Assembly: GCF_029542785.1 (NCBI RefSeq)
Contig: NC_083376.1
Location: 1 to 64,000, forward strand
DNA length: 64,000 bases
Direction of reading: 5' to 3'
Origin: Malassezia japonica
Taxonomy: Eukaryota > Basidiomycota > Malasseziomycetes > Malasseziales > Malasseziaceae
The position numbers and the translations under genes were made by a program. The notes below the pieces were generated by a model. The model saw nothing but the letters and a program-made list of their open reading frames with translations, did no database searches and was not told the origin of the DNA. This document shows, in pieces, positions 17,700-62,614 of the stretch. Numbering within the stretch: the first letter of the stretch is position 1; every line of letters begins with the position of its first letter.

Positions 17700-19488
17700 C
17701 TACAGAACGGCCCGAGCCGGCGAACCAGGAACAACGGCATCTTGTACAATCTTGGCAAGGGCTAGCACCTTTTCCTCTTGGAAGCGACGGCCCATGAGCT
17801 GAATACCAATTGGCATTCCATTGTGTTTATTGGGGTCATCTAGGTTAGCACAGATACATACAAGCATGGTAGACCTCTTCGTCCGTCGTATTGAAAAACT
17901 CGTCGCGTGTCTTTTGCGGTACAGGGCCAGATTTGGCAAGCGGCATTGACACGCTCGAATAGTGCAAGACATTACCGACTGGCGTGTATCCTGCTGTGAG
18001 ACACATGACTTACCAAAGTAGTTCACGCCGCCACGCTCCCAGGCTACTACTCCAGTATTCGGCATAAGGATTGCATCCATAGGACGCTTGCACTGCGTGC
18101 GCTTCGCCGTCTCGTTCCAGGCTTGGTCATATTCCGCTGTGTAGGCCAAACGGTCCTCGGCCTGTTCCCACACTTCCTCTGCCGTCGCCGGTTCACGATC
18201 ACCGCGCTTCTCGCCCATGAGCTCTGCCACTTCAGGAACCAGAGGCTCGCCTGCGTCTTCGCAAAGCTCGTGAATCTTGCCACCGGCAGTCTGTGCCATA
18301 ATCGAGAGCTGCGTCAGCCGGACAACGTACCCAAATCGTAAGCGCATGCGCGTGGGACGGTGGCTCGAATGGGATCACTTCGTGGCCAAGGCGATGCAAT
18401 GAATCAGCAATGTGCTCCAAAGCAGCCCGAATCGGTGGCTGGGGATGCGCCACATCGTCATGCAGCATGAGACCAAACACGAGCTTCTTCGGGGGAGTGT
18501 ATGGCCTCCAAGGCAATTCCACCACTGCTGGATCCACTTCCCACGGCTTGTAAGCCAGTGTTAGCTTCGCGAAAATTTCGAGGCACGCGAGTGAATTGCC
18601 CATTGGGCCCACAACGGACGGAATCGAGATCTGTCCGCCAAGCTGCGTAAGTCACGAAACGTACTGTCGACCGAGCTCCGAAAAGCGAGAAACGACCAGG
18701 GGTGCTCTTCAACCCCCAAACACCATTTACACTCGCAGGGATACGAATAGAACCTCCAATGTCACTGCCAACACCGAGCGCAGCTCCGCGCTGGGCCAGC
18801 AACGACCCTTCTCCGCCAGAAGAACCACCTGCTGAACACAGCCGATTGTAAGGATTGCATGTCCATCCCATGACATTATTCACAGTTTCGGCCGTCTGTA
18901 TTAAGTAGTCGACATACCATCATACTTGTAGGCACGTTTGTCTTCACGTGAAAGACGGCACCGGCATCCCGGAGCACGGGTACGACGCCGGACTCGTCCT
19001 CCTCCGTCGCAGGGTCATCGAGCCATGCCACGAATCCGACTGACGTATCATAGCCTTTCACATAGAACTGGTCTTTAAGCGAAACTGGCACGCCATGCAA
19101 TGGCCCGATCGTCTTCCCCGTCTTAGCCAAGTGGGCATCCAGTGCATCAGCTTGCTGGAGCGCAGCTTCCAGCATAAACTCGCTTAAACAGTTTGTCTGG
19201 GTAAGTGTCTATACATACGAGTTGATGGGCAATTGCCGCACGATGTGCAAAAGCTTCAGTAACGGTACGTGCCGACAGCTTGCGCTCGGCCAGCGCAGCG
19301 GCAAGCGGCTCGAGCTCCAGGGAGGTGATACGCCTCTCTTCCTCACTCAAGGCACTCTCCACGTAGCTAATAGAATTTGGCATTTCCTTTGGATCAGGAA
19401 TATTTGCCAATCGCCACTGGGATGGGATTGCTTCCCGAATAGCCGCGCGTTTCTTCTCAGCGCGGACCTGCCAATCTTCGCTCGACAT
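17700..19488 (-). CDS. Amidase signature family enzyme, seven exons with micro-introns
   Basis: Hydrolyses a carboxylic amide to acid and ammonia (PF01425; fungal acetamidase/omega-amidase group). Splicing six very small introns gives a 551-residue protein of normal family length. Introns are at 19197-19218, 18896-18917, 18643-18664, 18309-18330, 17991-18013 and 17840-17861; five are 22 nt and one 23 nt. Each restores a family motif: AHQLTNCLSE, TAETVNNVMG, LGGQISIPSVVGP, YFGYTPVGN and YDPNKHNGMP. The Ser-cisSer-Lys triad is visible as the Lys in SLKDQF, and the serines of GGSSGGEGSLL and GSDIGGSIR. It is transcribed away from an amino-acid permease only 63 bp off, which suggests uptake and breakdown of the same amide or amine. 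Exact substrate unknown. Confidence 0.92.
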
Positions 19489-19551
19489 GATGGGGTATGT
19501 GGAGGTTCATACACCTGATCCGTGCCCCATTGGAATTAAACTTCTGGCGCC
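19489..19551. promoter_or_regulatory. 63-bp bidirectional promoter, amidase / permease
   Basis: The whole space between the two divergent ATGs is 63 bp, so the two genes probably share control elements. I do not recognise a specific site in it. Confidence 0.45.
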
Positions 19552-29071: not shown

Positions 29072-30405
29072 ATGTCGCAAAAAATCCCGGTCATGCCGGG
29101 TCAAAAGCTTTCAAATGGCGACAAGCTGAACCGTCTCCAGAAACAGGTTCAAAACCTCCTTAATTTGGATCGAGCTCGGTAAGCACTGGTTAGTTGGCTT
29201 ATACCAGCTTCCCTGGCGCACTTCCTGTTTCTATGAACCGCCGTTCGTTGTCAGTTCTTGTACGAGAAGAGTGAGTGCTTTATCTTACGATCAGTTTCTG
29301 GGTGTGTGAGAAATCTGATGGTCTCCGCGTGCTCGTTCTCATTGTGAAATCACCAGTGACAGACAAACAAGAGGTTTACTTGGTGAACAGGAAAAATGAA
29401 TTTTATGAGGTTTCCGGTGTGGTATTTGCCTGTTTCCAAACTGGTCTTTTCTCAGAGGGTATATCTGAAGGTCGTACCGATACTCTTTTAGATGGAGAAC
29501 TTGTCGTCTATGTTGACTGCCATGGAAAACTATTGCATCACCTCCTTCTCTTTGATTGTATGGCAATTGACGGCGAAAGTTTAGTGCAACTTCCGCTGAT
29601 AAAGAGATATGCACGTTTGCGAAATGATATCCTTCGTCCCTATAAATGCTATTTGGACAACAATAAAACAAACGATCCACCTTTTGATGTACAAGTCAAG
29701 CAAATGAGATGTGCCTATGAGCTCGATTCCGTTCTGGAGGGTCTTGCAAATACGAAACACAATACAGATGGCCTCATCTTTACTAATACTATGGGTGGTT
29801 ACAATTGTGGTACGGACCGGAGAATACTGAAATGGAAACCACCTCATGAGACCACAATTGATCTTAAGCTCCAACTCAGGTTCCCCCCCGACTTGGACGC
29901 AGATCCACAAGGGAAGGTTCCAAATTACTATGCCAAACCCCTATTTCAACTATTTCGACAGGTTAAAGGAAACACACACGAGCCATTTGATTATCTTGAA
30001 ATGAGAGATGAAGAATGGGAGCAATGGAAACGCTCAGGCGAGCAGCTCGATGACCGAATCGTGGAATGTTCCTGGCAATATATCACCAATGGGCCTGCCC
30101 ATGACGGAACATGGCGCATTGTCCGTATCCGTGATGACAAGGTGGTTGCAAACCACAGATATGCAGTTTGCCATATCCTCAATACGATAAAAGAAGGCGT
30201 GAACCAAGAAGACTTAAAAAAGCTCATACCAGCTATTCGAACTTCATGGACATCATCAAAACGTGAACAAGCCCGAGTTCGAGCGCAAAACAAGTCTGCG
30301 TCACCGGTCAAAGCGGGTTCTAGCAAAATTAAGACCTGCAACGAAGAAATTAGCGTCGGCTCTTCTTTGCCACAAAGAGAGTTTCGAAATTTAGTTTCTG
30401 ATTGA
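29072..30405 (+). CDS. CEG1: mRNA capping guanylyltransferase, three exons
   Basis: Transfers GMP to the 5' end of nascent mRNA through a covalent lysyl-GMP intermediate; nuclear and essential in yeasts. Exons 29072-29178, 29208-29270 and 29295-30405 give 426 residues; introns are 29 nt (29179-29207) and 24 nt (29271-29294). Splicing rebuilds the family motif string RFPGALPVSMNR...REDFWVCEKSDGLR, with the catalytic Lys63 in EKSDG. Further nucleotidyltransferase motifs follow: DGELV (motif III), DGLIF (IV), LKWKPP (V) and WRIVRIRDDK in the C-terminal OB-fold part. The C-terminus is basic and Ser-rich. It is an isolated housekeeping gene inside the transporter array, about 29 kb from the telomere. 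No other exon is needed to reach normal family length. Confidence 0.93.
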
Positions 30406-34416: not shown

Positions 34417-36943
34417 ATGGACGAGGCGCTCCAGCCGTTCTTTACGGTGGGCTTTCCCTGTCACCTAGAGTCGCTTCCGACACTGCACTACAGTTTGGTT
34501 CCGAGTGAACATGATGAATCGAGCGACTCGGAGGATGAACTGAACGCCGGCCAAGGCATGCGGCTCCTGCCCCAGCTGGTGCCGAGTGAGCGCCAGCCGT
34601 GGCCCGTGATCATGCGCAATGCCAAGTCGGAGACTTTTATGGAGTCTGTAGACCAGTGGACGAAGCTGCTCGTGCTGCTGGATGCCGCCGATCCGGATCC
34701 TCACTTTACTGGGCTGCGCCGGTTCTTTGACACGCGCCTCGCCAAGGTGCTCCAAGAAGCGCCCAGGAGCCCCGAGGAGACCCTTTTTGCTTCGATGACC
34801 CTGGGAGAGAGCGGCCGCAACGGCTCGCCCGCTCCTCCCGAGCCCGAGGCGACCGGCGCTCCAGTCGAGCGCCGTGGCTCGTTTACGCCCGGACGGCTGC
34901 AGAAGCACTTTCAGTGGACACGGCGTCCCTCGCTTCCCGCGGCAATGCATTCGCGGCCGCAGGATACAGACATGGCGCCAGTCTCTCAGCCCAGATCGAT
35001 CCTGGGCTCGATGCGGCGTAGTTCGCGCCGTGGCGATGGGGACGCTGGTACTGTCAATACAGACATGTACGAGCTCTGGGTGGCGTCTGTACCCGATGAG
35101 ACTAATGCGCGATGCGTGCGCTTCAATGTGCGACTGGATTTGCACGCTGTGCGCCTTGCGCCCTCCCCTTCGATGGCCGAGCCCAAAAACGATGCGCGGA
35201 CGAAACGGGCGCCCGGCCTGGAGTTTACGCCCGTGGTGCGGGACGATACAAGCACACCTCCCACTGGCGCGCCGTCCACGGTCGAGTCGCTTGCGAGCGA
35301 TGAGGTGAGTGGTTCAGTTTCGCGGCGCTCGTTTGTGCATCGCATCCTCGACCGCGGCCTGCGCAAGTCGAGTGTTTCCGGCGCGCCAGCCGCATCGTCG
35401 CAAGCATGGATGCGGAACCACGACCATCTGGACCCCTATGGCCCCGAAAATGCCGAGGCGATCGACTCGGACGACGAGGTGGACCACCGGCGGGAGGACC
35501 GACCTGCGTCCGGCCCTCGGCGCAGCTCGTCGGGCAGTGCCGCGGCGCGCTCGCTCGGCACGCACGCGATGCCCTCCGACCTCGGTCGTGTCGAGGAGGA
35601 CTCGCTGTTTGAGCCGAGCGAGTACAACTCGGGGTTGCGCAGTATTATGCAAGACAGCAAAGCGACCACGTCTATGTATGATTCCGATGTACCTGGCGTC
35701 GGCGATGGCGAGGATTTTTTGGCGCTGCTGCGGCGTGCATCTGCGACGGTGCTGCGCCCCGGCACGCAGTCCAGCTGGAACCGCGGTGCGGACGATGCGC
35801 TGCCGTCGATACTCTCGTATGCCATGGCGCAGGCCTTTGGCTGGGAAGGTGTGCAGCACCTGTGCTATGGCGCTGGGAGTCTCTGTGCGCAAGAGCAAGT
35901 CTTTGCCCCCCTTGGGCGTGCAGCGGACATCAACTCGAGCATCAAAAAGAAGCACGATGCGGTGCTGTCCTGGCGCAGCAATGTGCAGGCTGGTGGCGAA
36001 GAGTTTACGGGCTTTCCGGGTGTGCCTGACCAGGACGTGCTGACGCCGCGTCTCGGCGACGAGCCCGACTCGCCTGTTGAGCTGCGCTCGACGGTAAGCA
36101 ACAACGAGACGCAATCGGATCCCAGCACGGACCCCGCCCCCCGTCTCGCGCGCAATGTGCTGGGCCGTACGTGGTCGGACTGGCACGCGCTCTTTTCGAG
36201 TATCTTTGGCTGGGTATCTGAGTACGAAACAACGCGCATCCGCAGTGGATTGGCGCATGAAATGGACCGCGAGGTCCCCCAAAACATCGTGGCTGTTTCG
36301 CGGCGCACCGGACGTGCGCAGCCCTCGCCGTGTGTCGAAGACGATGCGCTGAACGCTGCCCATGGCTTCCAGCGGCTACCCGGCATCCCCGAGGCGCTGC
36401 GCCACGGCCCCCAAGGCGAGGAGCACAGAGACTTTCGGTGGTCGCGCTCGCGGCTGCGCTCGAGCCATGTACATACACCGATCAGTGCGTATCGCGACTT
36501 ACCCAGTTATCAGCAGCGCATCCGTGCAGTTCTTTGTGCATCAGCTCGGCACGTCTCGGTGGGTATTTGAGAGTGCGTGGGAGCTGCAGTACCTTGACAA
36601 GTGCATCTTTGGTTCGGACATGATCCGGCAGCGTTTCCCCCCGCCCGGCGAGCAAGTCGTGCCTGCGGCGCATGCGTACCAGCCGAGTGCTGGCGAGCCC
36701 GACATCAGCACGCCGTGTCCCTACCCCAGCACATCCGGGGCGTGGAATACGCTCGCGTGGAGGAGCTGGCTCGCGACGCTGCGCGAAGGCCATGTCATTG
36801 TGCCTGCCGTGGCGTGGCAGGCATGGTGGACGCTGATTGCGGTGCTCAACGGTGCGGACCGCTCTGGGCGCTGGTACGACCTGCAGGTCAAGGCGCCCAA
36901 CGACAGTTTTGAGGACCTGGACCTTTCCTCTGTATATATCTAA
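34417..36943 (+). CDS. Large protein of unknown function, two exons
   Basis: Exons 34417-36484 and 36507-36943, joined over a 22-nt intron (36485-36506, GTGCGT start, CTTAC branch-like site, CCCAG end), give 834 residues. I do not recognise the family. The N-terminal part (about 1-115) looks folded (VGFPCHLESLPTLHYSLVPS; a region on ESVDQWTKLLVLLDAADPDPH), the middle is long and disordered with many Ser, Arg and acidic residues, with islands such as YELWVASVPDETNARCVRFNV, FLALLRRASATVLRPGT and WSDWHALFSSIFGWVSEYE. The C-terminal 145 residues, encoded by exon 2, again look folded and aromatic (FFVHQLGTSRWVFESAWELQYLDKC; WRSWLATLREGHVIVPAVAWQAWW). No signal peptide. The stop is 5 bp from the stop of the convergent neighbour. 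Confidence 0.75.
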
Positions 36944-41374: not shown

Positions 41375-43708
41375 ATGGACGACAGTGTCGGAACAAGCGA
41401 GGGTGAGGCTGGGTCTCGCAAGAGCCTGCCCCAGCGCGCCTCGTACTTGTACTCTCGCGCAGCGCGCGACGACACCGAAGTAGGCGATAACCTCGCACAG
41501 CGTACGTTTCTCCGCTTACCCAGTCCAGACGGAATTGCAGGAAATCAAGGCGCGGATTTCGTCCCAGTCCAAATCGAATTTTTTGCTCGGCTGCGATGTG
41601 CGCTACCTCGACGGGCGCATCGCGCTCCTGATCGCCAACCGCATGGCCCTCCACGAACAGAATGCCATGGCCCACGCGTGCGAAGACCAGGATCTGCCAC
41701 AGCGCGCGGTTCCCCATGACCGCCGCATGCAAACCTACTCCAACATGTTTTTCTTGCTCCAGTCAGAGCCGAGGTACATTGCGAACCTCTGCAGACTCGT
41801 GTCGCTGGGCGACATGGACATGCTGCTGCAGACGGTCATGTTCACCTTATACGGAAACCAATACGAAGAACGCGAGGAACACTTGCTCCTCGCCATGTTT
41901 CAGGTACGCTTTCCGTGCTGACGCAGTCGGTCCTGGCCGCACGCTTCGAAAGGGCGACCGACTCCCACTCGCTCTTGCGCGCCAATACGCCGGAATCACG
42001 GATGATGACCATGTACACGCGGCGGCCGCCCGGGCAGAGCTACCTGAAGCAGGCCCTGTCCCAGCACCTCTATGCGATCAACAGCCAGAGCAACTTGAAC
42101 CTCGAGGTGGACGTGCACAAAGTGTACGACGAACTGGTCGCCGCACGGCGCCTGCCGGCCGATGTGCCGCCCGACCAGGTCGGGATGCTCCCGGCGGTGC
42201 AGCAGTTGGTGCAGGTGCGCAGCGCGCGCCTCTGCAGCCTCGCCACGGATCTGCTGGACACCGTGATCCAGTCCCTGCCCCTCATCCCGTACGGGCTGCG
42301 ATGGATCTGCAAGCAGATCCGCAGCCTTACCCGGCGCCGCGACCCCGGCGCAAGTGACTTTGCGCGGTGCTCATTGATCGGCGCCTTTTTTTTCCTTCGT
42401 TTTTTGAACCCCGCGATCGTCTCGCCGCAGGCGTACATGCTGGTCGACGAGGCACCCAGTGGCCACCCCCGCCGGACGCTCACGCTGATTGCCAAGATGC
42501 TGCAGGCCTTGGTCAACAACTCGTCGTACAGCAAGGACAACGTTTTGGCCTCGCTGCGCCCTTTCTTTGACACGAACCGCGACAAGGTGTGCACCTTCCT
42601 GCACGCCATGTGCAATGTGGGCGACTTTTACGACACGCTCGAGCTCGACCAGTACATGGCGCTCTCGAAAAAGGATTTATCGATCAACATCTCGCTCAAC
42701 GAGCTATACCAGATGCACTCGCTGGTGTACAAGAACCTGGACGCTCTCGCGCCGAATGCGACCGACCATCTGCGTATCCTCATCGCCGAGCTGGGCCCTG
42801 CACCGGACACTGTGCCGCGCAGCGAGAACTACAATCTGGAGCTTCCCTTGTTCAACCGCTGGGAGACCCAGATCCAGGACTGGACGTCCAAGCTGATTTT
42901 GGAGAGCGACATGACGCAGCACGACGTGCTGTACATGGAGGCCAAGTCGATCGTCGTCAAGCTCATCCGGTCCCTGCCCTACGCCCCCCGCTCCCCCCTG
43001 CAGCTCGAGGGCGTGATTCGCACCGCGCAGCACTCGGGCGACAGTGTGCTGGTGGAAAAAGGCAACCGTGTCGCTGCGATGCTACAAGAGCTGGTCGCCC
43101 TGCGCATGGTCGACGCCCAGAACGCGTACATTCCGCTCTCGGACGAGATCCAAGCCGAGCTCGAGTTCCTGGGCAACTCGCGCGACGAGATCGCCAAGGA
43201 GCTCGAGAGTCTGCGCGCGGTGCTGTCGTCGATCAGCAAGCAGAACGTCTATCTGCGCAGCCAGCTGGACACGTACAAGAGTTACCTGCAGAACGCACGT
43301 ATCACCTCTGGCTCCAACAAGGAAAGCATCTCGACGGCACCCCTCGGTGTCGTGTCGGTGGGCGGCAAGGATCTGCGGCGCTCGCGCCTCTTTTCCGGGA
43401 ACCATGCGCACAAGTATACCTACCAGCAGCTGGAGCGGGAGTTGCTGTTTGAAGAGACGCTCATTCCCCAGGACCGCCGCCCCCAAATCTACTTCCAGTT
43501 CCTCTCTCCGACCCCCGGCACGTTCCTCATCTCGCTGCACTACAAAGGGCGCGCCGAGCCGATCCTGGAAATGGATCTGAAGCTCGACGACCTTCTCGAA
43601 AAGCAGCGCGAAGGGGCGCGCGAGCTCGACTTTAAGTACGTGCAGATGAACATTCAACGGTTGCACAACCTGCTCCACCGCCTCTATGCAAAGCCGCGGC
43701 GGTGGTAG
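41375..43708 (+). CDS. IQGAP-related Ras GTPase-activating protein, three exons
   Basis: Stimulates GTP hydrolysis by Ras, so limiting Ras signalling; similar in layout and length to fission yeast Gap1. Exons 41375-41501, 41524-41903 and 41927-43708 give 762 residues; introns are 22 nt (41502-41523) and 23 nt (41904-41926). After an N-terminal helical part, the RasGAP domain (about 170-480) shows LLRANTPESRMMTMYTRR, with the candidate arginine finger, and the FFLRFLNPAIVSPQAY signature. The C-terminal RasGAP_C region (about 600-755) ends in YTYQQLERELLFEE and FLISLHYKGRAEPILEMDLKLDDLLE, as in IQGAP-type proteins, and the last residues are basic. No IQ or calponin domain is present. A CACGTG is at 41290-41295. 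Confidence 0.92.
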
Positions 43709-46607: not shown

Positions 46608-47140
46608 ATGGGCGGCGCTAGTTCCAAGCCGGCGCGCAAGCTGGGCTCGACGGTTGCCTCGAAGCCGGTCGCGCCTGCGGCCTCTCAAGTGCCACGCAGT
46701 GCGCCTCCGCCGCCAAAAGAGGCACAGGACACGTCGCGCTTTACCAAGGACCAGTGTACGTCGCCACACTCACCCAGCCATCCGGCAAGACGCGCGCGAT
46801 CCGCAATTTATCCAGAACCTCCGGTCGCTGGGGCCGGTCGAGATCCAGGGCATGGAGGAGAAGAGAGACCAGGTACGCTACGGGCCTAATGCAGTCCGAC
46901 TCGATGCTCGGCATCATGCGTGCGCGTGCGCAGCACGAGGTCGAGACGGAAGAGCCCCAAAGCACATACGCCCCGGGCCTCACCGCGCCGGAGCTCGTGC
47001 GGCTTTTGGAGGAGTACGAGGCGTCGCCGAGCGATGCGCATCTCGACCGCCTCGCGGTCGAGTACGACGTGGACCGCGCGAGTCTCGGGCGTCTCGTGAA
47101 GTTTGTTCGCGCGCCGGACGACCAGCCGCTCACTACGTAG
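46608..47140 (+). CDS. Small protein with N-myristoylation signal, three exons, unknown function
   Basis: Introns at 46756-46777 and 46873-46894, both exactly 22 nt, give a 162-residue protein. It begins [11 protein letters not shown], a strong N-myristoylation signal (Gly2, Ser6), followed by a low-complexity stretch to about residue 45. The remaining part looks conserved and folded: [46 protein letters not shown] and [17 protein letters not shown], ending with a helical [25 protein letters not shown] do not recognise the family with certainty; a small mitochondrial assembly factor is one possibility. The stop codon ends at 47140 and the stop of convergent MSH2 begins at 47141, so the two genes touch. 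Confidence 0.78.
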
Positions 47141-50029
47141 CTAAAAGTTTTGCAAGACCTTGGCAGTCCATGGCTGGGTGAGTAAGGCGACGTACGTTGG
47201 TGCGGATCTTTTCGTCGTACTCCGCGATGCACGACTGGAGCGCGGCGAGCTGCGCCTCGGGGTCGGCCTTGGCGCGCTTTTCGCCACAGCGCTCGGACCA
47301 GGCCTGGAGGAACTGGTCGACAAGCGCAATGCCGTCCTCTGCGCCGTCCTCGGGCACGGCGCTTTGCGGCTCGTCGTGTCCTTCGAGCTCCTCGGCCTTG
47401 CGCTTCGCGAGGCGGATGACCGTGTCCGGAAAGTCGGCGAGCTCCGCGATCTGGATACCGTAGCTCTGGTCCGAGGTGCCGGGCTCGACCTTGTAGAGAA
47501 GGGTGATGTCTTTGTCGAAGCGCGAGCCGCCGTCGCGAGGCGCGACGTGCGCGACGACGTGCAGATTCTGGACGCTCGGCTGCTCCTGCGCGAGGTTTGT
47601 GAGCTCGTGGAAGTGCGTCGCAAAGACGCACTTGGCGTGGATTTGCGTCACAATGTACTCGGAAATCGCCCACGCCAGGCCGAAGCCGTCGTAGGTCGAC
47701 GTGCCGCGGCCCAGCTCGTCGATCAGCACAAGCGAGTCTTTCGACGCGGTCTTGAGGATCGTGGCGGTTTCCAGCATCTCGGCCATGAACGTGCTCACGC
47801 CCTTGAGCTGGCTGTCGCCCGCGCCGACACGCGCGAGGATGCAGTCGCACACCGGGACGTGCGCGCCTTCGGCGGCCGGCACAAAGCACCCGATCTGCGC
47901 AAGGAGCGTAATGATGCCAATCTGGCGCAGGTAGGTCGACTTGCCGCCCATGTTGGGGCCCGTCACCAGCAAAAAGTCGCACTCCTTCGCGATCATCTGC
48001 ACGTCGTTGGGAATAAAGTGCACCTCGTCCTGCACCTCGAGGCACGGATGGCGCGACTCGTGCAGCACCAAATCGGAGCCACGCTCGCCGATCCGGGGCT
48101 TGGTGTACGGAATCGGCGCGTTGCTCGAGACGTGCGCGAGACTGATCACGACGTCCAGGTGCGCGAGCACCACGTTCAGCTGCTCGAGCGGGGGACCGTA
48201 CGACGCTGCGTGAGAGGAGATACGTACAGGCAATCTCGATGACGTCCTTCACAAGCCGGCTCTGTGTCCGCGCATAGCTGTCCGACAGCGTGCGGAACTC
48301 GTCGTTGAGCTCGCGCAGGGCCTGTGTGGTAAAGTACACACCGCCCTTGACCGTGCCGAGGTCCAGGTAGCCTTTGCGGTTCTTGAGCACGCCCGCGTCC
48401 TGGGTAAGTAGAAAAACGTACGGTGCGTGTCACACGGAAGCAGTAGCCGTACGACGTATGGTTCTCGAGATGCAGCTTCTTTTCGGTATCCATGCGCAGG
48501 TCATGGCCGGCCTGCACATGCTGCTCGTCCAGCTGGTCGCGCACATGATTCAGCTGCGACTTGATCGTGCCGAGACTCTCGTCAAAGTCGGGCTTGATGA
48601 CATAGTTGTGGTGCGCAAGCTCCTCGAGATCGATCGTCATCTCGACCATCTCGACTAGCTTGGACAGGTGCTGGTCCAGCTCCTGGAGCGGCGTCACAAA
48701 CGTGCTCTGGAACAGGGCCTGCGTCGGTGCAGCGCCGATCGGAAGCTCGGCCAGCGCTTGTATGAGGTCAGGAAGGCGGACCACGGCCTGGTAGCAGCGC
48801 ACGACATCCTCCAACGTCGCGACCTTGCGCTGGAAACGCTTGCTAATGCGCAGCATATCCGGCATATACTTGAGGAACTCGTCCTGGAGCTTATGACGCG
48901 CCTCAAGGTCCTCGAAAAAGACCTCGACCAGCGCCTGGCGGTTTTCGATGGCGTGGACATGCACGAGGGGCTGCTTGAGCCACTGGTTCAGCATGCGCAC
49001 GCCCTGCGCGGTCTTGCAGCGGTTCAGCAGGCCAAACACGGTCGTATTCCGGTTGTTCGACGCGCCGCCGCCGGCCTGGTCGGGGAAGAGGCTCAGTGCC
49101 CGCAGCGCCGCGTGATCCAGGCGGAGGTACTCGCTCAGGTCATGCGTGCGCAGCGTAAACTGCCCAAAGTTGGACTCGTCCGCGAGCAGGTTCAGGTAGG
49201 AGAGCAGCGCCGCCGCCGAGGTCATGGCCACTTTGAGCTCGAGCTGCGGCACAGCACCGACGTCGCCTTTCAGCAGGCGGCGCACGTCCTGCTCGACCGA
49301 CTTGCTCGAGAAAGCACTCTTCTTGCAGTCGGACAGAATGCACCCGCAGCGGTCGACGACCGCACGGAGCTTGGCGAGGTCATAGTCCGTGTTCGACTCG
49401 TCCGACGGAAGAAGGCACTCCTTCACGCCGAGCTGGATAAGAAGTGACTCGGTATTCGAAAAGAGATCGTTTTCGGCGTATTCTGCGACACCCATCTCGC
49501 GGTTCGTCGCGTCGGAAAACGCAACACCGACCGTATTCACGCCGTCCTGTGCCTTGACACGCAGCGCAAGCACGATCGGGTTCGAGACGACATCCGCGTT
49601 GAGGAACAGCAGATCCTCGACATCCTGCAGGTTTCCGGGCGACGCCTGCTTCGCAATCTGCCACGAGCCCGTGCGGCGGCCCGCGCCGTCGGTCGACGCC
49701 CAAATCTCCACGCGGAGCTGCTTGGCGGTGAGCGCGTCGCGGAGGAAGCTCTTCGCCGCCGGGATGCTGAGCGTGCACGACGGCAGCCCGCCATCGTTGC
49801 TCTTCTTTCCAAGGTATTTGAGCACGGACTGCGTCTTGAACACCGTGTCTGCGACGTACAGCGCGTCTTGGCCGTGCACGGTATAAAAGTCCTGCCTGTC
49901 AAAGAGGCGGACGGTGCCCGGGACCGCCGCGGGCATCCCGTGAAAGAACGCCACAAAGCTCGCGTCGCCGCGGTCTCCGTCGGTCTTGTCGCGCCGCGCC
50001 TCTTCGGTGGGGTACATGAAACCCGACAT
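47141..50029 (-). CDS. MSH2: DNA mismatch repair protein Msh2, four exons
   Basis: MutS homologue that pairs with Msh6 or Msh3 to recognise mismatches in the nucleus. Exons 50029-48422, 48399-48228, 48205-47196 and 47173-47141 give 940 residues; the three introns (48400-48421, 48206-48227, 47174-47195) are all 22 nt. The order is mismatch-recognition and connector domains, the lever/clamp helices, then the ATPase: [16 protein letters not shown]alker [17 protein letters not shown]alker B/signature and FATHFHELT. Splicing restores [17 protein letters not shown] and [15 protein letters not shown]. The final exon is only 33 nt, coding ten residues ([10 protein letters not shown]); if intron 3 were retained the protein would end with a different 21-residue tail. 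Two CACGTG elements precede the start. Confidence 0.95.
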
Positions 50030-50105: not shown

Positions 50106-51200
50106 CTATGACCGTTTGGCTTGGTGGGTGGGGCGGATGGGAGCGTCGTCCGGGATGCGCATGCCCGGCCCCTTCCAGTTCGGCGGGGCGCATAGCTGAC
50201 AGAACCAGCGGCCCTTGGGCTGCTGCTCGAGACCGACACATGCGTAGTGGAACTAGATGAGAAAGAAAAAATACAACGTACCCATTCGCGCGGACAGTCG
50301 TCATTGTCGCATGCGACCATCTCGCCGTAGGACACGCGGTTGCAGTAGCAGTACCGCGGCTCGCTGGGATCGATATCCGCCTCGGCAATCCGTGCGATGC
50401 CGGCTGCGTCCGGCGTCGCCTGCTGCGACGCGGTGCGCTTGTGTCCACGTTTCGGCTGCGCTTCGATCGCCGCGAGCTCTGTCGCGAGGTGTTCTTTGAG
50501 ATATGCGAGGCACGTCAGGGGATCCAGCGACACGAGGCCGCTCCAGAACGTGAGGTGCTGGCCTTCCGGCGAGAAGCGGTCGGACGCAAGCGGGAGCGGT
50601 GCGGCGCCTTCGGACGGCGTATCGTCTGTGAGCTCCTTGCGCAGCCCTGCGTGCAGGCTGCGCTCGTTCTTGAGCAGGTCAATGTCGAGTCGGCGAATGT
50701 GCCGGTCGATGGTATCATAAGCGGCCACGGCGAGTGCGAGTTTTTCCTCCCCCATCGACACGGCACTCTGTGATGCGGCGTAGATCTGCGCGAGCTGTGC
50801 ATGGCGCTCCGATGCGGCACTCGGCGCGCCCTCCTCCTCCTTCTTGATCGGGTCGGGCTGGGCACTGCTCGACGCGAGTGGCCCGCAATTTCGCGACGCG
50901 CAGTACTGTTTCCACAGCACGCCCATTTTGGCCTTTTCGTCTGTATATAAGACGCGTTACGCACCCTCTGTATTCTTATCGAGCTCCTTCATCAGGTCAA
51001 ACGAGCGCTGGAGCTCGAGCGGGAGCTGGTCGACAACTGGGTAAGTCGTGCAACATACTGTCTGCGTACGCATCCGACCAGCGTGACGCACGCTCCTCAA
51101 GCTCCTTGTTAAACGCTTCCTGCTCCGACTGCGAAATGGTAATCGGCGCCTCCTCCTCGTCCTCGCGCCGCACGCGCCCCCGCCGTACGCGTCGCGGCAT
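50106..51200 (-). CDS. ING-family PHD finger protein, four exons
   Basis: A chromatin protein of the ING/Yng2 type, which ties a histone acetyltransferase or deacetylase complex to H3 lysine 4 methylation. Introns at 51037-51058 (22 nt), 50941-50964 (24 nt) and 50253-50281 (29 nt) yield 339 residues. The ING N-terminal motif IVDQLPLELQRSFDLMKELDKNTED is rebuilt by the first two introns, and a helical stretch with EEKLALAVAAYDTIDRHIRRLDIDL follows. The third intron rejoins the PHD finger: CYCNRVSYGEMVACDNDDC, WFHYACVGLE and GRWFCQLC give the full C4-H-C3 set. The N-terminus is Arg-rich (PRRVRRGRVRREDEEE). Which complex it belongs to cannot be told by eye. Confidence 0.92.
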
Positions 51201-54109: not shown

Positions 54110-54123
54110 GGGCCATGTGAGTT

Positions 54124-55332: not shown

Positions 55333-55509
55333 GGGACCAGTCCAGCTGGTGTATCTAGGCCAGCTAGTGGGGTTCGTGCAGGGACAGGAGGACGTGCACT
55401 AGGTGCACACAAGGAGGGATAACGCAAGATGAATTTCCCATTCACGCCCCGTAGAACCTGTCACTCTATGCAACATCTATGCGTCCGTGCGAGATCGGAA
55501 AAGTGGAGG

Positions 55510-56989
55510 TTAGGCGGCGGCGGCGGCGGCGTCGCTCGGTGCGTCGTCCGTGTTGAGGATGCGCACCGCGTGCAAAATATAGCCGCCACTAGCAGACGTC
55601 GACATATCCGGATGTGTACGTGCGGGAAGGACTTGGTAGCGGCGCAGCCACGGCTCGGTAATCGAGACATTGACAAACTGGGGATTCGCACGAATGCGGG
55701 CTTGTGCTTCCACGAGGGGCTGCGTGTGAGGGAGGCGACGTACCTGCAGGTGCGGGCTATGCACCACGACGTTTGCCGATCCGGCCAAATAGGGTAGGAG
55801 GCGGTGGATCACCGAGTACGGCTCGTAAGGGCATGCGACCAGCACACTGCGTCAGCCAAAGTACGTACGCGTCGAATTCGCCGTCAAAAAACTGCTGGCG
55901 TGTAGCGACAAAGTCTTCGATCGCTGCGCGCTTCTTGCGTGCGCGGTTGCGCTCGCGGTCGGTTTTGTACACACGTGCGAGCTCGTCCGACATGTGGGAA
56001 GCTGCGTAAGTCGGGCAACGTACGCAGCAGCCAGCGCGACTCGGTCGCGGCCCAGTGCATTGTGCGCAGCACGCCGTGGGTATGATACGGCGTCAGGCAC
56101 AGCATCGGCATCAGCTCCAGTGCAGGGGGAGAGTCGGCGTCGTGGATGAGGTGCACCGAGCCACACCCACCCATGCGCTCGAGCACGGCACCGGTCAGCA
56201 GGCCGCCGACGCCGTCGACAATTACATACTTCCCTCCGGCATGCACATCCGCAAATGAAAGGAGCTGCGACAAAGCATCCGGGCGCAGGCCGCGGATCTT
56301 TTCGGGATTCCGCTCAAAGTTGTACCACCCGACATTGTAGAGATCCGGCGCGAGCGGCGTAAAAAACTTGAGGTGCTTCGACTCTTTTCTCTTCATAATC
56401 TTTTCCTGGCTGTATGCAGTGCGCATCTCGTAGCTCTTGTTGCTCTCGAGCTGCTTCTGGATAATTTCCTGCGTGAGTGGGGCAACGTACGCGACCCGTC
56501 GCTCCGGCGGCCTTGAGCGCCTTGATGTCCTCATACGAAAGCGTCTGCGACTCGCCATCATCAAAGATGTTTTCATTTGTCGCCTCGCTCTCGACTGCGT
56601 CAGCAGCACAACGTACCAAGCGCCTCGGCGACGTCCTGGTGCATCACCTCCAAACTTCCGTCGGCCTTGATTTCGTACGTCGGCCCGAACGCACGGCCGA
56701 TGATCTGGTCCGCGGGAAACGTGCCAAACTTGCCGATCGACACCGACTTGCCCGGCGTGAGGACCACCTGCTTCGTCATACCCGACGGAAGGCGCAGCAG
56801 CACCGGCTCATTCGCCGGCACATAGGCAATGCGGCGGCGCAACTGCTCATTGTCCGGCACCTGCGGCGCCTCGAAACGCTGGCGCTTCACCTGGGGCTCC
56901 TCGGCAGCGTCTGCAGCGTGCATTTCCTGGGCATCCACGCGCTCTGCGCCCGATTCGGGCACACTGGGCGCCAGTTCGCCCTCCGCCAT
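55510..56989 (-). CDS. TRM6: tRNA m1A58 methyltransferase non-catalytic subunit, six exons
   Basis: Trm6 (Gcd10) pairs with Trm61 to methylate adenine 58 of tRNAs, including initiator tRNA, in the nucleus. Exons 56989-56617, 56594-56491, 56468-56024, 56001-55869, 55846-55744 and 55719-55510 give 455 residues. Introns are 56595-56616, 56469-56490, 56002-56023 and 55847-55868 (all 22 nt) and 55720-55743 (24 nt). Family blocks are LRLPSGMTKQVVLTPGKSVSIGKFGTFPADQIIGR.FGPTYE, LSYEDIKALKAAGATGREIIQKQLESN, EKIMKRKESKHLKFFTPLAP, GKYVIVDGVGGLLTGAVLERMGG and the C-terminal GGYILHAVRI. The protein ends in a poly-Ala run. The 24-nt intron is divisible by three and free of stops, so its retention would only insert eight residues. 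Confidence 0.93.
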
Positions 56990-57047
56990 GACCGAGGGGA
57001 AGGAATCACGTGGCACCTCCACTGCTCACGACGCGCCTCTGTGCACG

Positions 57048-57484
57048 ATGAGCGGCGCAGCCCAGGACGTGGCGGCGGACGATGCCGAGTTCCAGGTGCG
57101 TATCTATTCTCATGTAGCAAGGTATCCAGGCCATCATTGCGCCGATGATTGAGCAGGGCGCGTCCGAGGACGAAATCAAGGCGGTGATTGCACGTGCGCG
57201 CCAGTTCTACGCCGAGCACAAGTACGTCGCCCCGCTGACGCAGATCTTCGGCGACACAGGACAGCAGCACGGCGAGTGCGTCTGCCTCGAGCGCGCCGGC
57301 CGCGGGCGAGGGAGCGCCCGCGCAGGCGGAAAAATATCCTACCTCGTTCAACCAAATTGTCGAGTTGATTGCTACGGGTCAAGAGGACAAGATCCCGGGC
57401 GTGCGCGACATTCCCCTCAAGATCAACGAGAGCGCGCCGAGCACCTCGACGCTCGCGCGCCCCAAGAAGCCGTGGGAGCCATAG
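57048..57484 (+). CDS. Small KPWE-motif protein, Pex39-like, three exons
   Basis: Introns at 57096-57117 and 57222-57243 (both 22 nt) give a 130-residue acidic protein. An N-terminal helical part reads QGIQAIIAPMIEQGASEDEIKAVIARARQFYAEHK; a low-complexity Ala/Ser linker follows; the C-terminal part is SFNQIVELIATGQEDKIPGVRDIPLKINE...STLARPKKPWEP. The sequence FNQIVELIATG..IPG(V)RDIP followed by a terminal KPWE matches the KPWE domain found in Pex14-related proteins and in the small protein Pex39, which assists Pex7 in importing PTS2 cargo into peroxisomes. The match rests on my recollection of that motif. It is divergent from TRM6 over 58 bp, with CACGTG at 57007-57012. Confidence 0.75.
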
Positions 57485-57557
57485 CCCGATCCCCGATCCA
57501 TATCTTGCACGTGATCTTCCAATAATTTGTTGCCTCCGTCTCTGTCGCTTGGTTGAG

Positions 57558-60139
57558 ATGGCGAAGCAGGACACGTTGGTCATGCAAGAGGCGCCTCGTC
57601 AGGCGCAATCTCTTGCGGACAACGTGAGGTCGGAGCCGCATCGTCTGGCAACGGGCGATGCTGGCGTGCACTCGCTCGCCCAGGATGCCACCAAGGCCCT
57701 CTTTGACCATGGTACGTGACTTTGCTTACCCCAGGCGTGCAGCAGGAAAAGTCGTCGCTTCCATTTATTTCGTCGCTGCTCGACTCGGTGGTTCCGCGTG
57801 CAAAGAGCGCGTCCCAGAAGCGCAAGCGCGACGAGGGCGACGACACGCACCCGCTCTTTCCCCCGACGCAGCTCGACGAGCTTGTTCTGAACGGCATGCA
57901 GAACGAGCAGATCTGGCAGCAGCTTGAGCTGCGCACCTCGAAGCTGTCGCGTGTGCTCGATACCGTCATGACGAGCACTGTTGGCGAAGACGAGGACGAA
58001 GAGGAGTCGGACGACGACTCCTTGTCGCAGTCCCTCGACCATATTCCCGAAGAAGACAGCGACGAGGAGTGGGAAGACGAGGCGGAGAACAGCGCAGATG
58101 AAGGATTCGCAGGCGCGTCCGATCTCAGCGATGTCGACCCCGATGAGGTCTTTTACGAGCCGCTCCATTCCGAGGACGAGCAGCAAAAACGCAAGGCGGA
58201 AAAGGAGCGCGAGGAAATGATGAACATGTACGGCGTCACCGACCCTGCGCTCTTCCAGGCGCTTATGCAGGAGGCGCAGGGGGATGGCGACGAGGATGAG
58301 GACGAAGACGAGGACGCGCCGGCCAAGAGCGTGCTCGACCAGCTCGACGATCCGAACGAGTCGGCCGCTTCGTCCAAGCGGCGGCATCCTACGCTCGACG
58401 ACGACTTTTTCTCGATCGACGAGTTCAACCGCATGACCGAGGCCGAGGAGCGGCGAAGCAACACGTCGCGTGCAAACCTCTCGGGCGACGACGAGGATGA
58501 AGACGACGACGAAATCGACCTCTTTGCGTCGGTCGACGATGCCGACGACAGCGAGGACGAGGACGAGGACGAGGATGAGGACGAGATGTCGGCTGCCGAC
58601 ATTACGTATGCCAACTTCTTTGACCCGCCCAAGACCGCACCCAAGTCCCAAAAGAAGGGACGTGCACAGAAAGAGAACAAGGTTGAAGAGCCCCAGGAGC
58701 CGGAGCGCAAGACTCTGGTGCGGTTCCACGACCAAGTTCGTGTGCGTCCGATCAAGAAGTGCCGTCCGCGTGGCCAGATTGCTGGTCTCCTTGGCGATGG
58801 TGAGGACGAAGAGGAAGATGAGGAGGAAGAGGAGGAAGAGGAGGAAGAGGACGACGACGACGACGATGAAGAGGACGACGATGAAGAAGAGGAGGAAGAG
58901 GTCGAGGATGAGATTGGCCTCGACCACAACCACGACGCAATGGATGAGAACGAGGAAGATGAGGATGAGGACGAAGACGAGGACGAGGAAGACGAAGAGG
59001 AAGACGAAGAGGAAGACGACGAAGAAGATGTCGACCTTGACGAGGCGGACGAAGACGACCTCGACGCCGACCTCGACGACGATGCCCTCTCTGAATCCGA
59101 GCTTGGCGAAGACGCGCAAGCTGATGCGACGGCTGTGCGTGTCGCTGGCGACCTCTTTGCCGACGAGGAGCCCGAGCAGGATACCGACTACCTCTCTGCC
59201 CACGAGCGCCGAATGGCTGAGCTCAATGAGGAGATTGCGCGATACGAAGACGAAAACGTGCAAAAGAAGGACTGGACCCTCATGGGTGAAGCCACGTCGC
59301 GTGAGCGTCCCTCCAACAGTCTTTTGGAAGAGGACCTGGAGTTTGAGCGTACGGCGAAGAACACGCCGACGATCACTCAAGAGCATACCGAAGGCATTGA
59401 AGGTATGATCAAGCGGCGTATCCTCGACCGGCAATTTGACGATGTCATCCGCCAGCGCGATATCGATGCGCTTCCCTTTGCGCCATCCAAGATGCTGGAT
59501 CTCTCCGATGCAAAGAGCTCCAAGAGCCTTGCGGAGCTGTACGAGGACGAGTACCAGGCCGCGCGTGGCGACGAGGATGCTGCGCCCGTGAGCGAGTCCG
59601 ACGCGAAGCTTGCAAACGAGCACCAGGCGATTGCGCGCGACCTTGATTCGCTTTTCAACAAGCTGGATGCCCTGAGCAATGCGCACTATACGCCGAAAGC
59701 GCCGAAAGCCGCAATCGAGACGATCTCCAACACGTCGTCGATTGCGATGGAGTCTGCGCTGCCCACGACGCAGTCCACCGGCACGATGCTTGCGCCTGAA
59801 GAGGTGTATGCTGCATCGTCGCACGCGCCTGCGATGGCCGGTGCCAAGAGCGAAATGACCCCCGCGGAAAAGCGCCGGCAGCACAACCAGCTGCGGCAGG
59901 CGAAGCGCAAGCGCAACGAGCGCATGCGGCGGGCAGAAGACGCGATTGCGGTGAGCCGCGGCGCGCCACGCAAGGAGGGCGACAAGGCCGAGAAGGACAA
60001 GGCGCTCAAGAGTTTGCTGGGCAACAAAGGCGTCTCGGTTGTCGGCAAGGACAGCAAGCGCCAAGGCGTGAAAGAGGCGGTGACGGGCAAGAAAGACAAG
60101 GGCAAGTCGTCGTCGTCGGGTGCGCAGTACAAACTGTAG
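57558..60139 (+). CDS. MPP10: U3 snoRNP component Mpp10, two exons
   Basis: Nucleolar protein of the small-subunit processome, needed for early 18S rRNA cleavages. Exons 57558-57711 and 57735-60139, joined over a 23-nt intron (57712-57734), give 852 residues. Long Asp/Glu tracts occupy about residues 135-175 and 410-500, typical of Mpp10. Conserved blocks include QLDELVLNGMQNEQIWQQLELR, ITYANFFDPPK, LVRFHDQVRVRPI-like sequence, NSLLEEDLEFERTAKNTPTITQEHTEGIEGMIKRRILDRQFDDVIRQ and SKSLAELYEDEYQ. The C-terminus is basic (TPAEKRRQHNQLRQAKRKRNERMRR). A CACGTG is at 57508-57513. The stop is 4 bp from the stop of the convergent biotin gene. Confidence 0.94.
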
Positions 60140-60143
60140 TATA

Positions 60144-62614
60144 TTAGCTACGTAGCTGCGCTTCAAGCGCCGCTTGCGTTTGGGACAAGATTGCCTGGGG
60201 GGTATTCAGGCTGCACATCACGTAGACCACGTTGCCCAGCGGGCGCAGATGGATGTGCTCGCTGCGCAGCGCGGCCAGGAGGCCTTCGGCAGCCGTCGAC
60301 GCGTAGCCGCCGGCCGCGTCTGCCAGCTCGATTTTCAGGACGGTGCCGAGGGCCATGGCGCTTGCGACGCCGTCCAGGCGCGAGAGGCGCTCGACAAAAG
60401 CGCGGTCCCAAAAGCTCCATGCGGCGCCCCACTGCGCCTGGAAGGGCGCCCAGTCCTTGCGGCGCACCATCTCGTCGAGGAGCGACAGTGTCTCGTTCGC
60501 CACCGCACACCCGACGGGGTGCGCCGTGTAGCTGTGCCCATGCAGGAGCGCATGCACCTTTTCCGGCGTCTGGCGGAAAGTGTCAAAGATGCTCGACGAT
60601 GCCAGCGTCACCGAGAGTGGCACCAGGCCACCCGAGAGGATCTTGGCGTAGCACGCAATGTCCGGCGTCGTGCCGAGGACTTCGGTCGCGCTCGCATAGC
60701 CCAGGCGAAAGAGGCCGGTAAAGACCTCGTCAAAGACGACCGGCAGGCCGCGCCACTCGGACGGCGAGCGCCCATCCGCTGCTGGGCTCACCGCATCACG
60801 CAGCGGCGCATCCTGCATCGCAAAGAGGTCCTCGCGCGCACGCACCACGTCGATCAGGATACGCTGAAAGAGGGGATCGACAAACACCATGCCGCCTGCG
60901 CCCATCACCAGCGGCTCGAGCACGAGCGCGCCAAAGCGGCGGCAGTCGACAATGACCAGCCGCTCGAGCGTCGCGTTGATCGCCGCGCGGTACTCGTCTG
61001 CCAGCGGTGTACCGAGTCGCTTTTCGACGTCGTACGCCTCCTCCATCGATGCAAACGAGCCCAGCGGCTTTGTGCCGAAATCCCAGTCCTCGGACGGGGG
61101 CGCGACAATGTCGACTTGGCCGTTGCGCGTCGCAAGGGCCGGAGGAGCGAGCCAGTAGCCCCGCCCGCGGTACCACGCGACGTGGTCGCTGTACGTGCTC
61201 GGCTCGCACGCGTCCATCGCGCCGATCGTGTCGCCATGGTAGCTTCCCTGCAGCCCCAGCACCTCCCACTCGCGCTCTGGGCGCCCGCCGAGCGAGCCGG
61301 CGGCGCGTCCAGGACGGATGCGCTGCTGCGTCGCCTTGGAGCCGGCCTGGGGCGCGTACCGCCGCGCCGACGACTGGATCGCCATCTTCAGCGCGACCTC
61401 CATCGCGGTACTGCCGTCGTCGCTAAAGAACACGCGGCTCGCCCACGACCCCGGCGCAGGGAACGCCAGGGGCTGCGTGCCCAGCAGGCGCTCTGCGAGG
61501 TCGAGCGCCGGCTGGTTCGCCGCACCCGGAAAGAGGACATGGCCGTAGCGTCCCGCGGCGTAGGCGGCTGCCTGCGTAAGGCGGGGATGCGCGTGCCCAA
61601 AGCACTGTGTCCACCACGACGCGGATCCGTCGAGAGTCGCGTCGAGCGACTGCGACGTGGCGTTGTACGTCGCAAACGTATCGCCATGCGCACTATCGAT
61701 CGCCATCACATCCTGCGGCGTGTACCGCGCATGTTGTGTGAACGGCCACCAGCACTGCTCGTACGTGCGCGTGCCGAGCGTGCGGAGCTCGGCGAGGCGG
61801 TCTGTATGCCGCTTTTGGAGGTGGCGGACGACGCTGCCGAGGCCGCCGCCGTCGCGCCCCGCGACGAGCCCAGCATAGTACGTACGCATCGCCGCGACGT
61901 CCTCAGCCGTGGTCGGCGCGCGGATGGGGGGCGCGCCCCACCCCCCGTCGCTCGGGCCACCGAGCGCAAAGACCGGAATGCCATGCTCCTCCTCTAGCAG
62001 GCGCCCAAGGTACACGTCGTTCCCGTACCGCTCCGATGGAAAGAGGAGCACCGCGTCGATATCGTAGCCACGCATGCGCAGACTCTCGAGCGCCGCGCGC
62101 GTCGTGCCGATGCCGCCGAGCTTTGACGAGCCGACGAGCACGGTCGGCAGGCGCAGCGGGCGCAGCAGGTCCGCCTGCGACAGGCCGCTCGGTGCCGGCG
62201 AGTGCACGCCTCCGGCCGTCTCTACGATCGCGGTGCCGTGCTGCTGCATGAGCCATTGGCGAACGCCGTGGATGATCTGTGCATCCTGTGCCTCGTCGGG
62301 GAGCGCGCCGGTCGCCTGCGTCGCCGCGAGGTGCGGCGACACCGGATCGCTGAACTGCACGAGCGTCGTGCTTGCAACCTGCGGCGCAAAGGTCGCGAGG
62401 TGGCTGCATAAGCCTCGGCACCTACCTGGCATCCGCCTCGTGCGCCGGTCCGGTCGACACCGGCTTCAGGTACGCCACGCGCTCGCCCGCGGCCGCGCTC
62501 GCAAGCGCAAGGCCTGTGGCAAAGATCGTCTTGCCCACATCCGTATCCGCGCCAAAGACCTATGTGAGCCGTGCGGCCTACCTGATGCGCCCGCACCCTT
62601 GCAAAGAGCGCCAT
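60144..62614 (-). CDS. Fused dethiobiotin synthetase / DAPA aminotransferase, three exons
   Basis: A bifunctional biotin-synthesis enzyme with a BioD-like half (about residues 1-290) that closes the ureido ring and a BioA-like half (about 300-808) that aminates 7-keto-8-aminopelargonate, as in plant BIO3-BIO1 and many fungi. Introns at 62560-62581 and 62404-62425 are 22 nt each; they use the variant donor GTAGG(C/T). The first exon is only 33 nt (MALFARVRAHQ) and joins to VFGADTDVGKT, the P-loop. BioA features are WWPFTQH, SWWTQCFGHAHPRL, the GSTAMEVALKMA block, FDEVFTGLFRLG, and the PLP lysine in CYAKILSGGLVPLS; HGHSYTAHPVGCA follows. 808 residues. Product localisation is probably mitochondrial or cytosolic; no strong presequence is seen. 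Confidence 0.92.

Follow-up and report, generated by a model that had tools for sequence, protein, structure and literature searches.

The window analyzed here is a 64-kb stretch of DNA at a telomeric end of a Malassezia genome, the assembly of which comprises 8.43 Mb in nine contigs. Between positions 17700 and 62614 of the window we count 33 introns, that is, 24 of 22 nt, three of 23 nt, three of 24 nt, two of 29 nt and one of 34 nt. The amidase gene (minus strand) has five 22-nt introns (17840..17861, 18309..18330, 18643..18664, 18896..18917 and 19197..19218) and one of 23 nt (17991..18013), and the mRNA capping enzyme gene (plus strand) has one of 29 nt (29179..29207) and one of 24 nt (29271..29294); these eight were identified from the pattern scan, the open frames obtained by splicing and Pfam matches, and the remaining 25 were placed by a gene finder. 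Both the gene finder and the pattern scan identify five further plus-strand introns of 22 nt (36485..36506, 38143..38164, 41502..41523, 46756..46777 and 46873..46894) and two of 23 nt (41904..41926 and, in a gene for an acidic protein, 57712..57734), as well as three 22-nt introns in a minus-strand gene of the Mpv17/PMP22 family (37028..37049, 37130..37151 and 37243..37264), for which the encoded domain is additional evidence.

The MSH2 gene (minus strand) contains three 22-nt introns placed by the gene finder; the junctions of two of these, at residues 589 (48206..48227) and 532 (48400..48421), fall within a single match to human MSH2, and the junction of the third, at residue 926 (47174..47195; also found by the pattern scan), falls outside this match. 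The gene finder and the encoded domain identify introns of 29 nt (50253..50281), 24 nt (50941..50964) and 22 nt (51037..51058) in the ING/PHD gene (minus strand); the gene finder and homologues identify one of 24 nt (55720..55743) and four of 22 nt (55847..55868, 56002..56023, 56469..56490 and 56595..56616) in the TRM6/Gcd10 gene (minus strand). In the KPWE-domain gene (plus strand; gene finder and domain), the gene finder chose 34 nt (57096..57129) for an intron with a 22-nt alternative (57096-57117), and a second intron of 22 nt (57222..57243) is also found by the pattern scan. Finally, a gene encoding an AAA_26/aminotransferase-III fusion (minus strand) has two 22-nt introns placed by the gene finder (62404..62425 and, with a pattern match, 62560..62581).

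A relaxed pattern scan of the same region returns 42 matches (25 of 22 nt, three of 23 nt, three of 24 nt, two of 29 nt and nine others of 27-38 nt). The last nine, none of which was placed by the gene finder, were left out of the intron count; two of them are longer readings that share an end with a 22-nt intron. An earlier note on this DNA had counted 34 introns, 25 of them of 22 nt; its counts at 23, 24, 29 and 34 nt agree with ours, and one of its 22-nt introns could not be traced. The five introns that it gave as examples are all present at the coordinates given, with the described layout (relaxed scan, gene finder).

This layout places the donor at positions 1-6, a branch motif at 14-18 with its A at 17, and AG at 21-22; it holds, with a core (GTACGT...CTNAC.CAG) that is narrower than first proposed. 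The donor has C at +4 in 96 of 116 cases. Across 50 introns of 22 nt that were placed blindly, the information content of the word is 23.3 bits, with spacer positions 7-13 contributing 0.01-0.68 bits each; in 40 blind 22-nt introns of C1, the branch motif is C14 in 39, T15 in 40, A17 in 39 and C18 in 36. The 22-nt introns are 57% GC, and, because 22 is not divisible by 3, retention of one always shifts the reading frame. Forms of 21 nt occur four times among the introns placed in the sample described below (three with the same spacer and a tail one base shorter, one with a spacer of 6), and two 17-nt calls by the gene finder lack the branch motif.

Lengths were assessed in a 264-kb sample and with pattern counts over the whole genome, using a strict motif (GTACGT-N7-CTNACNCAG, 22 nt), variants with other spacer lengths and the reversed pattern as control. 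The 22-nt class extends genome-wide: the strict motif with spacer 7 occurs 1,784 times and the reversed control does not occur. With spacers 1-30 taken together, the genome contains 2,233 matches (control 15), 80% of which (1,784/2,233) are 22 nt; five have spacers of 1-6 (control 2) and, by subtraction, approximately 444 have spacers of 8-30. When the 264 kb are scanned with the relaxed pattern and the tail is set to one base, there are 0, 1, 134, 16 and 4 matches at spacers of 5, 6, 7, 8 and 9, respectively. The donor-to-branch distance in this one genome is almost never less than 16 nt, that is, the distribution has a wall.

The same length was obtained with a flat-prior gene finder (a uniform intron-length prior, with GT..AG as the only signal) that was compared with 19 decoy dinucleotide pairs. 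With GT..AG, 50 of 137 introns are exactly 22 nt (51 of 137 in a rerun, 41 of these on the C1 block); with the decoys, 0-8 segments are 22 nt. The decoys place 122-140 segments in total vs 137 for GT..AG, so only the 22-23-nt peak of the finder is informative; both ends were recovered for just 36 of 99 strict motifs. In a motif-aware run, 116 of 195 introns are 22 nt.

When the 22 nt are cut out, the flanking reading frames become continuous at 73 of the 86 strict sites in the 264 kb (control 1/300); the other 13 are not joined in this simple test. The decoy dinucleotides, the reversed-pattern controls and this frame test together rule out a chance origin of the 22-nt class. Of 99 strict motifs, nine are outside predicted genes, and those that overlap a predicted gene are in the sense orientation in 90 of 90 cases. 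In ten chosen proteins, 26 of 33 junctions fall within one Pfam match. Removal of its six introns gives the amidase gene an open frame of 557 residues (224 if none is removed) with a full Amidase match, which appears only with the splicing described, and the alignment of TRM6 to the Malassezia pachydermatis and Malassezia nana proteins runs across all five junctions. Removal thus restores frames, domains and homologue matches, which, with the uniform sense orientation, supports the spliceosomal reading of these segments that the earlier note had put forward.

As judged from sequence, the segments are very probably normal spliceosomal introns of the U2 type, reduced in length to the minimum that the Malassezia spliceosome accepts, with most of them piled at the wall. 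Their GT..AG ends and U2-type branch motif are those of U2-type introns. The U12-type (minor) consensus is a ATATCCTT or GTATCCTT donor with a TTCCTTAAC branch; the donor here is GTACGT and the branch CTNAC, which do not fit the U12 type. Each 22-nt intron can be viewed as a rigid word, that is, the donor GTACGT (1-6), a 7-nt spacer, CTNAC (14-18, with A17), one free base and CAG (20-22). In the presumed splicing of the RNA, U6 would base-pair with the donor, and GUAGUA of U2 with the branch motif; branching at the putative branch point A17 would give a lariat with a loop of 17 nt and a tail of 5 nt. The wall would then reflect how closely donor and branch can physically approach each other, and short deletions may have pushed the introns down to it. 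The U2, U5 and U6 snRNAs were found in the assembly; the branch-pairing GUAGUA of U2 and the ACAGAGA of U6 match the Rfam consensus, and the U5 loop is canonical. The matching changes in U2 and U6 for which inspection had been proposed are absent, and an alteration of either RNA to suit short introns is rejected because both are canonical at their pairing regions.

The nucleomorph of Bigelowiella natans is a compacted endosymbiont nucleus. Its 18-nt introns (cited in PMC12316389) are ultra-short like those described here, yet shorter; with those of Stentor (15 nt) and Trichomonas (23 nt) they form the shortest classes described in these sources (PMC9505925, PMC12316389), and a donor-to-branch distance of 16 nt is indeed, as had been suggested, near these classes. 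Stentor coeruleus, in which 92.81% of 8,806 introns are 15 nt, is the nearest known case, with the branch A likewise 5 nt from the end (PMC9505925). Its 15-16-nt introns share with those described here the near single length, the fixed branch A and the 5-nt tail, and its U6 ACAGAGA and U2 branch-recognition sequence are also conserved (PMC9505925); the features of a Stentor-like class (a single dominant length below 30 nt, a branch-motif A at a fixed position and a lower length wall) are all found in this genome. However, Stentor is a ciliate, its introns are 15 instead of 22 nt with the branch A at 10 instead of 17, and they are AU-rich and poorly conserved at the branch (PMC9505925); in the introns described here CTNAC hardly varies, and the 22-nt class is 57% GC. 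The shorter introns of Stentor show that a limit of 16 nt does not apply universally. The type B introns of Trichomonas vaginalis (~25 nt, shortest 23) are also uniformly short with a branch motif near the 3' end, but they number 24 vs about two thousand strict motifs here and have a CTAA-type branch, a T-rich remainder and a more variable donor (PMC12316389). Among basidiomycetes, Cryptococcus neoformans has many introns of <60 nt, but their length is variable, with an average of 56 nt and a small population of <40 nt (PMC11913375). Malassezia restricta, in the same genus, has short introns (median 30 nt), but this published median is longer, and mode, wall and motif are not given in the accessible text (PMC9241646, PMC6473144).

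It is quite possible, although we lean against it, that the trait occurs throughout the genus and is well known to those who annotate Malassezia genes, with the genome studied here adding just a precise number. The earlier note had asked whether such introns were described for the lineage, and the general trait is already known (PMC7426719, PMC9241646): 'very short introns' are stated for Malassezia genes (PMC7426719), the M. restricta introns have a mean/median of 37.2/30.0 nt (PMC9241646, Table 1), and the M. restricta annotation used a min_intron_len of 15 (PMC6473144). However, other printed values are larger (an average of 76-79 nt for Malassezia globosa; PMC4634964), a 2025 paper ranks Cryptococcus as richest in <100-nt introns among the fungi it studied (PMC11913375), and a printed report of the exact 22-nt mode, the wall or the GTACGT...CTNACNCAG word in Malassezia was not found in the literature searched, which excluded most subscription papers. 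The handling of very short introns by the spliceosome has been called unknown (PMC11913375) and posed as a question (PMC9505925). If these are shrunken U2-type introns at a wall, they provide a sharply measured lower limit for a fungal spliceosome, 16 nt from the donor G to the branch A, and almost two thousand naturally occurring introns lie right at this limit; M. furfur and M. sympodialis are transformable (PMC5654937), so the limit is testable with a series of spacer lengths. Gene predictors with a longer minimum intron would break Malassezia proteins.

The wall could also be something other than a passive floor: the length of 22 nt may be actively kept, with the spliceosome acting as a ruler and selection removing both longer and shorter variants. 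The occurrence of 80% of the strict motifs at one exact spacing, exon flanks that are only weakly biased, and a 23.3-bit word, which is approximately enough for one or two chance matches in the genome, are in its favor. We nevertheless consider this unlikely: there are ~444 strict introns with spacers 8-30, the frames of which also join in 12 of the 13 in the sample, and the distribution is one-sided, with a wall on the left and a decaying tail on the right, as predicted by deletion bias against a floor.

By the usual pairings, the C at +4 of the GTACGT donor would match neither a U1 of the canonical type nor the U6 box of this genome, which is canonical. For U1, an Rfam model search of the assembly, up to E 10, returned nothing, and the usual 5' end, ATACTTACCT, has zero occurrences in the assembly. 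Sites with ATACNTACCT number 57 (25 with G, 16 with A, 16 with C and none with T), and all were examined, including one (L040) with fewer than 100 bases downstream. At 44 sites an open frame covers 90% or more of the stretch, a weak Sm-like T run is present at seven, and 28 (17 of 25 with G, 8 of 16 with A and 3 of 16 with C) resemble introns on the opposite strand because GTACGT almost equals its own reverse complement. With cmscan, no U1 was identified at 55 of the sites (all except L040 and the C1-block site); the most U1-like of the seven sites with a T run (L037) has no U1-like fold on visual inspection, and the strand opposite to it looks like coding sequence; a search for the 5' end plus loop matched a single site that is not U1. 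No convincing U1 is present among the 57 sites, and a U1 that co-changed to pair with GUACGU is not supported by the Rfam search, the ATACNTACCT sites or cmscan; such a U1, if real, would have G opposite donor +4, and a 5' end of AUACUUACCU would speak against it. The U1 of this genome may differ at its 5' end, or the assembly may lack it. Loss of METTL16 as the cause of the +4 C is rejected, given a METTL16-like gene on C8 (PF05971, E 6e-41), in which an in-frame TGA falls inside a 22-nt intron.

The absence of ATACTTACCT from the assembly and the lack of a convincing U1 at the 57 ATACNTACCT sites support a more speculative proposal, which we regard as improbable: the spliceosome might read these introns as a fixed 22-nt word whose donor and branch leave too little room for the U1 and U2 snRNPs to bind next to each other as usual. 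The donor +4 C would match neither canonical U1 nor the U6 box, and the introns would either do without U1 or depend on one with a much altered 5' end. That the segments are sites of translational bypass or frameshifting, or small mobile inserts located in genes, is scarcely credible: their length is uniform, as it can be in insertion elements, but donor, branch and acceptor are U2-type signals, the copies differ inside (0.01-0.68 bits at spacer positions 7-13), longer members share the same ends, and the U2, U5 and U6 RNAs are present.

As a separate observation on deposited sequences, two M. furfur proteins appear broken at such introns; in the deposited M. furfur MSH2, the ATPase domain is missing from approximately the position of such an intron onward.

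To place introns in the 264-kb sample (the window plus 200 kb of contig C1, DNA not in the stretch covered by the earlier note), our two-strand gene finder used codon statistics, GT..AG boundaries, and a flat intron-length prior from 12 to 200 nt. Of the 137 introns it called, 50 are exactly 22 nt long and 10 are 23 nt, with none at 18–21 nt; in a rerun that included 19 decoy dinucleotide pairs, GT..AG gave 51 segments of 22 nt vs 0 to 8 for the decoys. Because the decoy pairs also yielded totals of 122–140 segments, blind calls outside the 22–23-nt peak are mostly noise, and that peak alone is informative. A motif-aware run, trained on the position table from the 40 blind 22-nt introns in C1, assigned 22 nt to 97/166 C1 introns and 19/29 window introns (together 116/195), with 24 calls of 23 nt and four of 21 nt. 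A good branch motif was absent in 18 of 192 calls, mostly those longer than 40 nt and those of 17 nt; noise probably accounts for both 17-nt calls and for part of the 23 calls above 40 nt.

The genome (8,433,779 bases in 9 contigs; contig C7 starts with the 64-kb window) was searched for the word itself, that is, donor, spacer, and branch motif. The strict word, GTACGT N{1,30} CTNACNCAG, has 2,233 matches (reversed control, 15): 1,784 have a spacer of 7, corresponding to a total length of 22 nt (control, 0), five have spacers of 1 to 6 (control, 2), and about 444, by subtraction, have spacers of 8 to 30. With 99 strict words for 195 calls in the sample, a rough extrapolation suggests about 4,000 introns in the genome. 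In the 264-kb sample, a relaxed word with a one-base tail is found 0, 1, 134, 16, 4, and 1 times with spacers of 5, 6, 7, 8, 9, and 10, respectively (controls, 0–1), a distribution that is one-sided like that of the strict word.

The 22-nt segments are predicted spliceosomal introns. At strict 22-nt sites in the sample, removal joins the flanking coding frames in 73 of 86 cases (58/62 where the frames are clear), as compared with 1 of 300 random 22-mers from intronless genes. Wherever a strict word overlaps a predicted gene, it is in the sense orientation (90 of 90; the other 9 of the 99 are outside predicted genes), and the flat-prior finder recovered 36 of the 99 at both boundaries and a further 20 at one. 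Ten spliced C1 proteins were chosen for Pfam comparison from a listed 20 of the 34 multi-intron genes; by our count, 26 of their 33 junctions are inside one Pfam match, of which five lie in a single long ThiF match that contains large insertions and are weaker evidence. The spliced MSH2 of the window aligns with human MSH2 in one alignment (residues 17–865) that spans the junctions at 532 and 589, not that at 926; the alignment of TRM6 with its counterparts in M. pachydermatis and M. nana runs across all five junctions, and those with human and yeast TRM6 are interrupted or gapped near residue 307. In the gene at 17.7–19.5 kb, removal of six introns opens a frame of 557 residues (224 unspliced; 334–544 if any one of the six is kept), and the Pfam Amidase profile is covered by the spliced product from position 2 to 445 of 445. 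The earlier note's observation of 22-nt introns is borne out and holds genome-wide; in the window we count 33 introns (25 from the motif-aware run, 8 from pattern and spliced frame) vs the 34 claimed.

The motif-trained 22-nt set has G at +5 in 116/116 and C at +4 in 96/116; C14, T15, and A17 are present in 115–116 of 116 and C18 in 98/116. The information content is 23.3 bits per word for the 50 blindly placed 22-nt introns. The exon flanks are weakly biased (G at −1 in 47/116), and phases 0, 1, and 2 are represented by 37, 45, and 34 of the 116 introns. Introns of 21–30 nt are skewed to the 5′ ends of genes (54, 29, 21, 26, and 33 per gene fifth). Two adjacent short-chain dehydrogenase genes (C1, 550303–552536) share the codon positions (residues 6 and 24) and phases of their 23-nt introns, which is what a tandem duplication would produce.

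Spacers shorter than 7 nt are nearly absent, and three of the four 21-nt calls have a one-base-shorter tail after the branch, with a spacer of 6 in only one; the "wall" thus bears on the donor–branch distance more than on total length. The simplest account is a hard limit combined with deletion pressure, that is, a U2-type spliceosome would impose a hard minimum donor–branch distance, and deletion would have driven most introns in the genome down to it. The main rival is that the 22-nt length is selected as a fixed-length word; the long right-hand tail of the length distribution speaks against this as the whole story. With the wall, the question of the minimum intron becomes testable in a yeast.

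U2, U6, and U5 snRNAs are each present in one copy, and the U2 GUAGUA, the U6 ACAGAGA, and the U5 loop are canonical; the matching changes in U2 and U6 that the earlier note proposed to look for are not seen. A gene for a METTL16-like protein is also present (C8, 266816–267695), with an in-frame TGA located within a 22-nt intron. METTL16 methylation of U6 is linked to A at donor +4; despite this gene and the canonical ACAGAGA, the donor +4 is mostly C rather than the expected A. U1 snRNA has no Rfam match in the genome, and ATACTTACCT, its usual 5′ end, is absent from both strands genome-wide; forms with A, C, and G at position 5 occur 16, 16, and 25 times. The 57 ATACNTACCT sites include no convincing U1 (28 look like opposite-strand introns and 44 are within open frames), and cmscan of 55 of these identified no U1. 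Such searches can miss U1, so its apparent absence is a lead, not a result. The ATACNTACCT sites have an odd strand imbalance on the contigs of the whole genome (18 on +, 39 on −).

In two individual cases rather than a survey, deposited M. furfur models look mis-spliced at micro-intron positions, judged from their protein sequences. The M. furfur MSH2 (P0194) tracks the window MSH2 up to KDVIDIA, approximately the second intron position, continues with unrelated sequence, and is without the MutS_V domain; from the protein letters only, the residues after KDVIDIA could be read-through of GTACGT...CTCACCCAG, with a length of ~25 nt. The M. furfur TRM6 (P0009) is missing 4 and 6 residues directly past the first two window-TRM6 junctions, as expected if the predictor forced longer introns. 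The models for M. psittaci MSH2 and for M. pachydermatis and M. nana TRM6 are intact.

The predicted introns fall within a recognized class, that of spliceosomal introns that are ultra-short and of fixed length. In the portions of the literature surveyed, Stentor has 15-nt introns (8,173/8,806) with the branch A at position 10 and a 5-nt tail (PMC9505925), the same tail length as here; a 23-nt Trichomonas intron is described as among the shortest known, comparable only to those of Stentor (15 nt) and Bigelowiella (18 nt) (PMC12316389, 2025). For Malassezia (Basidiomycota, Ustilaginomycotina), the sections consulted mention "very short introns" (PMC7426719), a mean of 37.2 and a median of 30.0 for M. 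restricta (PMC9241646), and an average of 76–79 for M. globosa (PMC4634964). We found no report of the 22-nt mode, wall, or motif in this partly surveyed Malassezia and short-intron literature, within which the present case is the most sharply defined in fungi.

Positions 1–447 of the window are telomeric repeat (~74 copies of TCCTAA, read as TTAGGA on the complementary strand), that is, a chromosome end; four telomere repeat types are mentioned for Malassezia in the part of the source seen (PMC12506658). The closest relatives of TRM6 are Malassezia proteins (M. brasiliensis, 84% identity across 82% of its length; M. pachydermatis, M. nana, and M. furfur, 73–75%). The nearest named protein to MSH2 is that of M. 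psittaci (76%). These matches identify the source of the window as a Malassezia species. The database protein P0159 is 99% identical across 57% of MSH2, which indicates that another sampling has already covered this species or one very close to it. The open frame at 5136–9032 (−), 1,298 residues long, has a secretory-lipase domain at residues 126–412; much of its remainder overlaps long tandem repeats (5230–7535; 33-, 54-, 99-, and 150-bp units). Three OPT oligopeptide-transporter genes are on the + strand (21780–24254, 25564–28026, and 31882–34317), the first two inside a stretch of ~45% GC (20–32 kb) vs 64.5% for the C1 sample, with a capping-enzyme gene between the second and third. The gene at 60144–62614 (−) contains both an AAA_26 domain and a class III aminotransferase, the make-up of fused biotin-synthesis enzymes.
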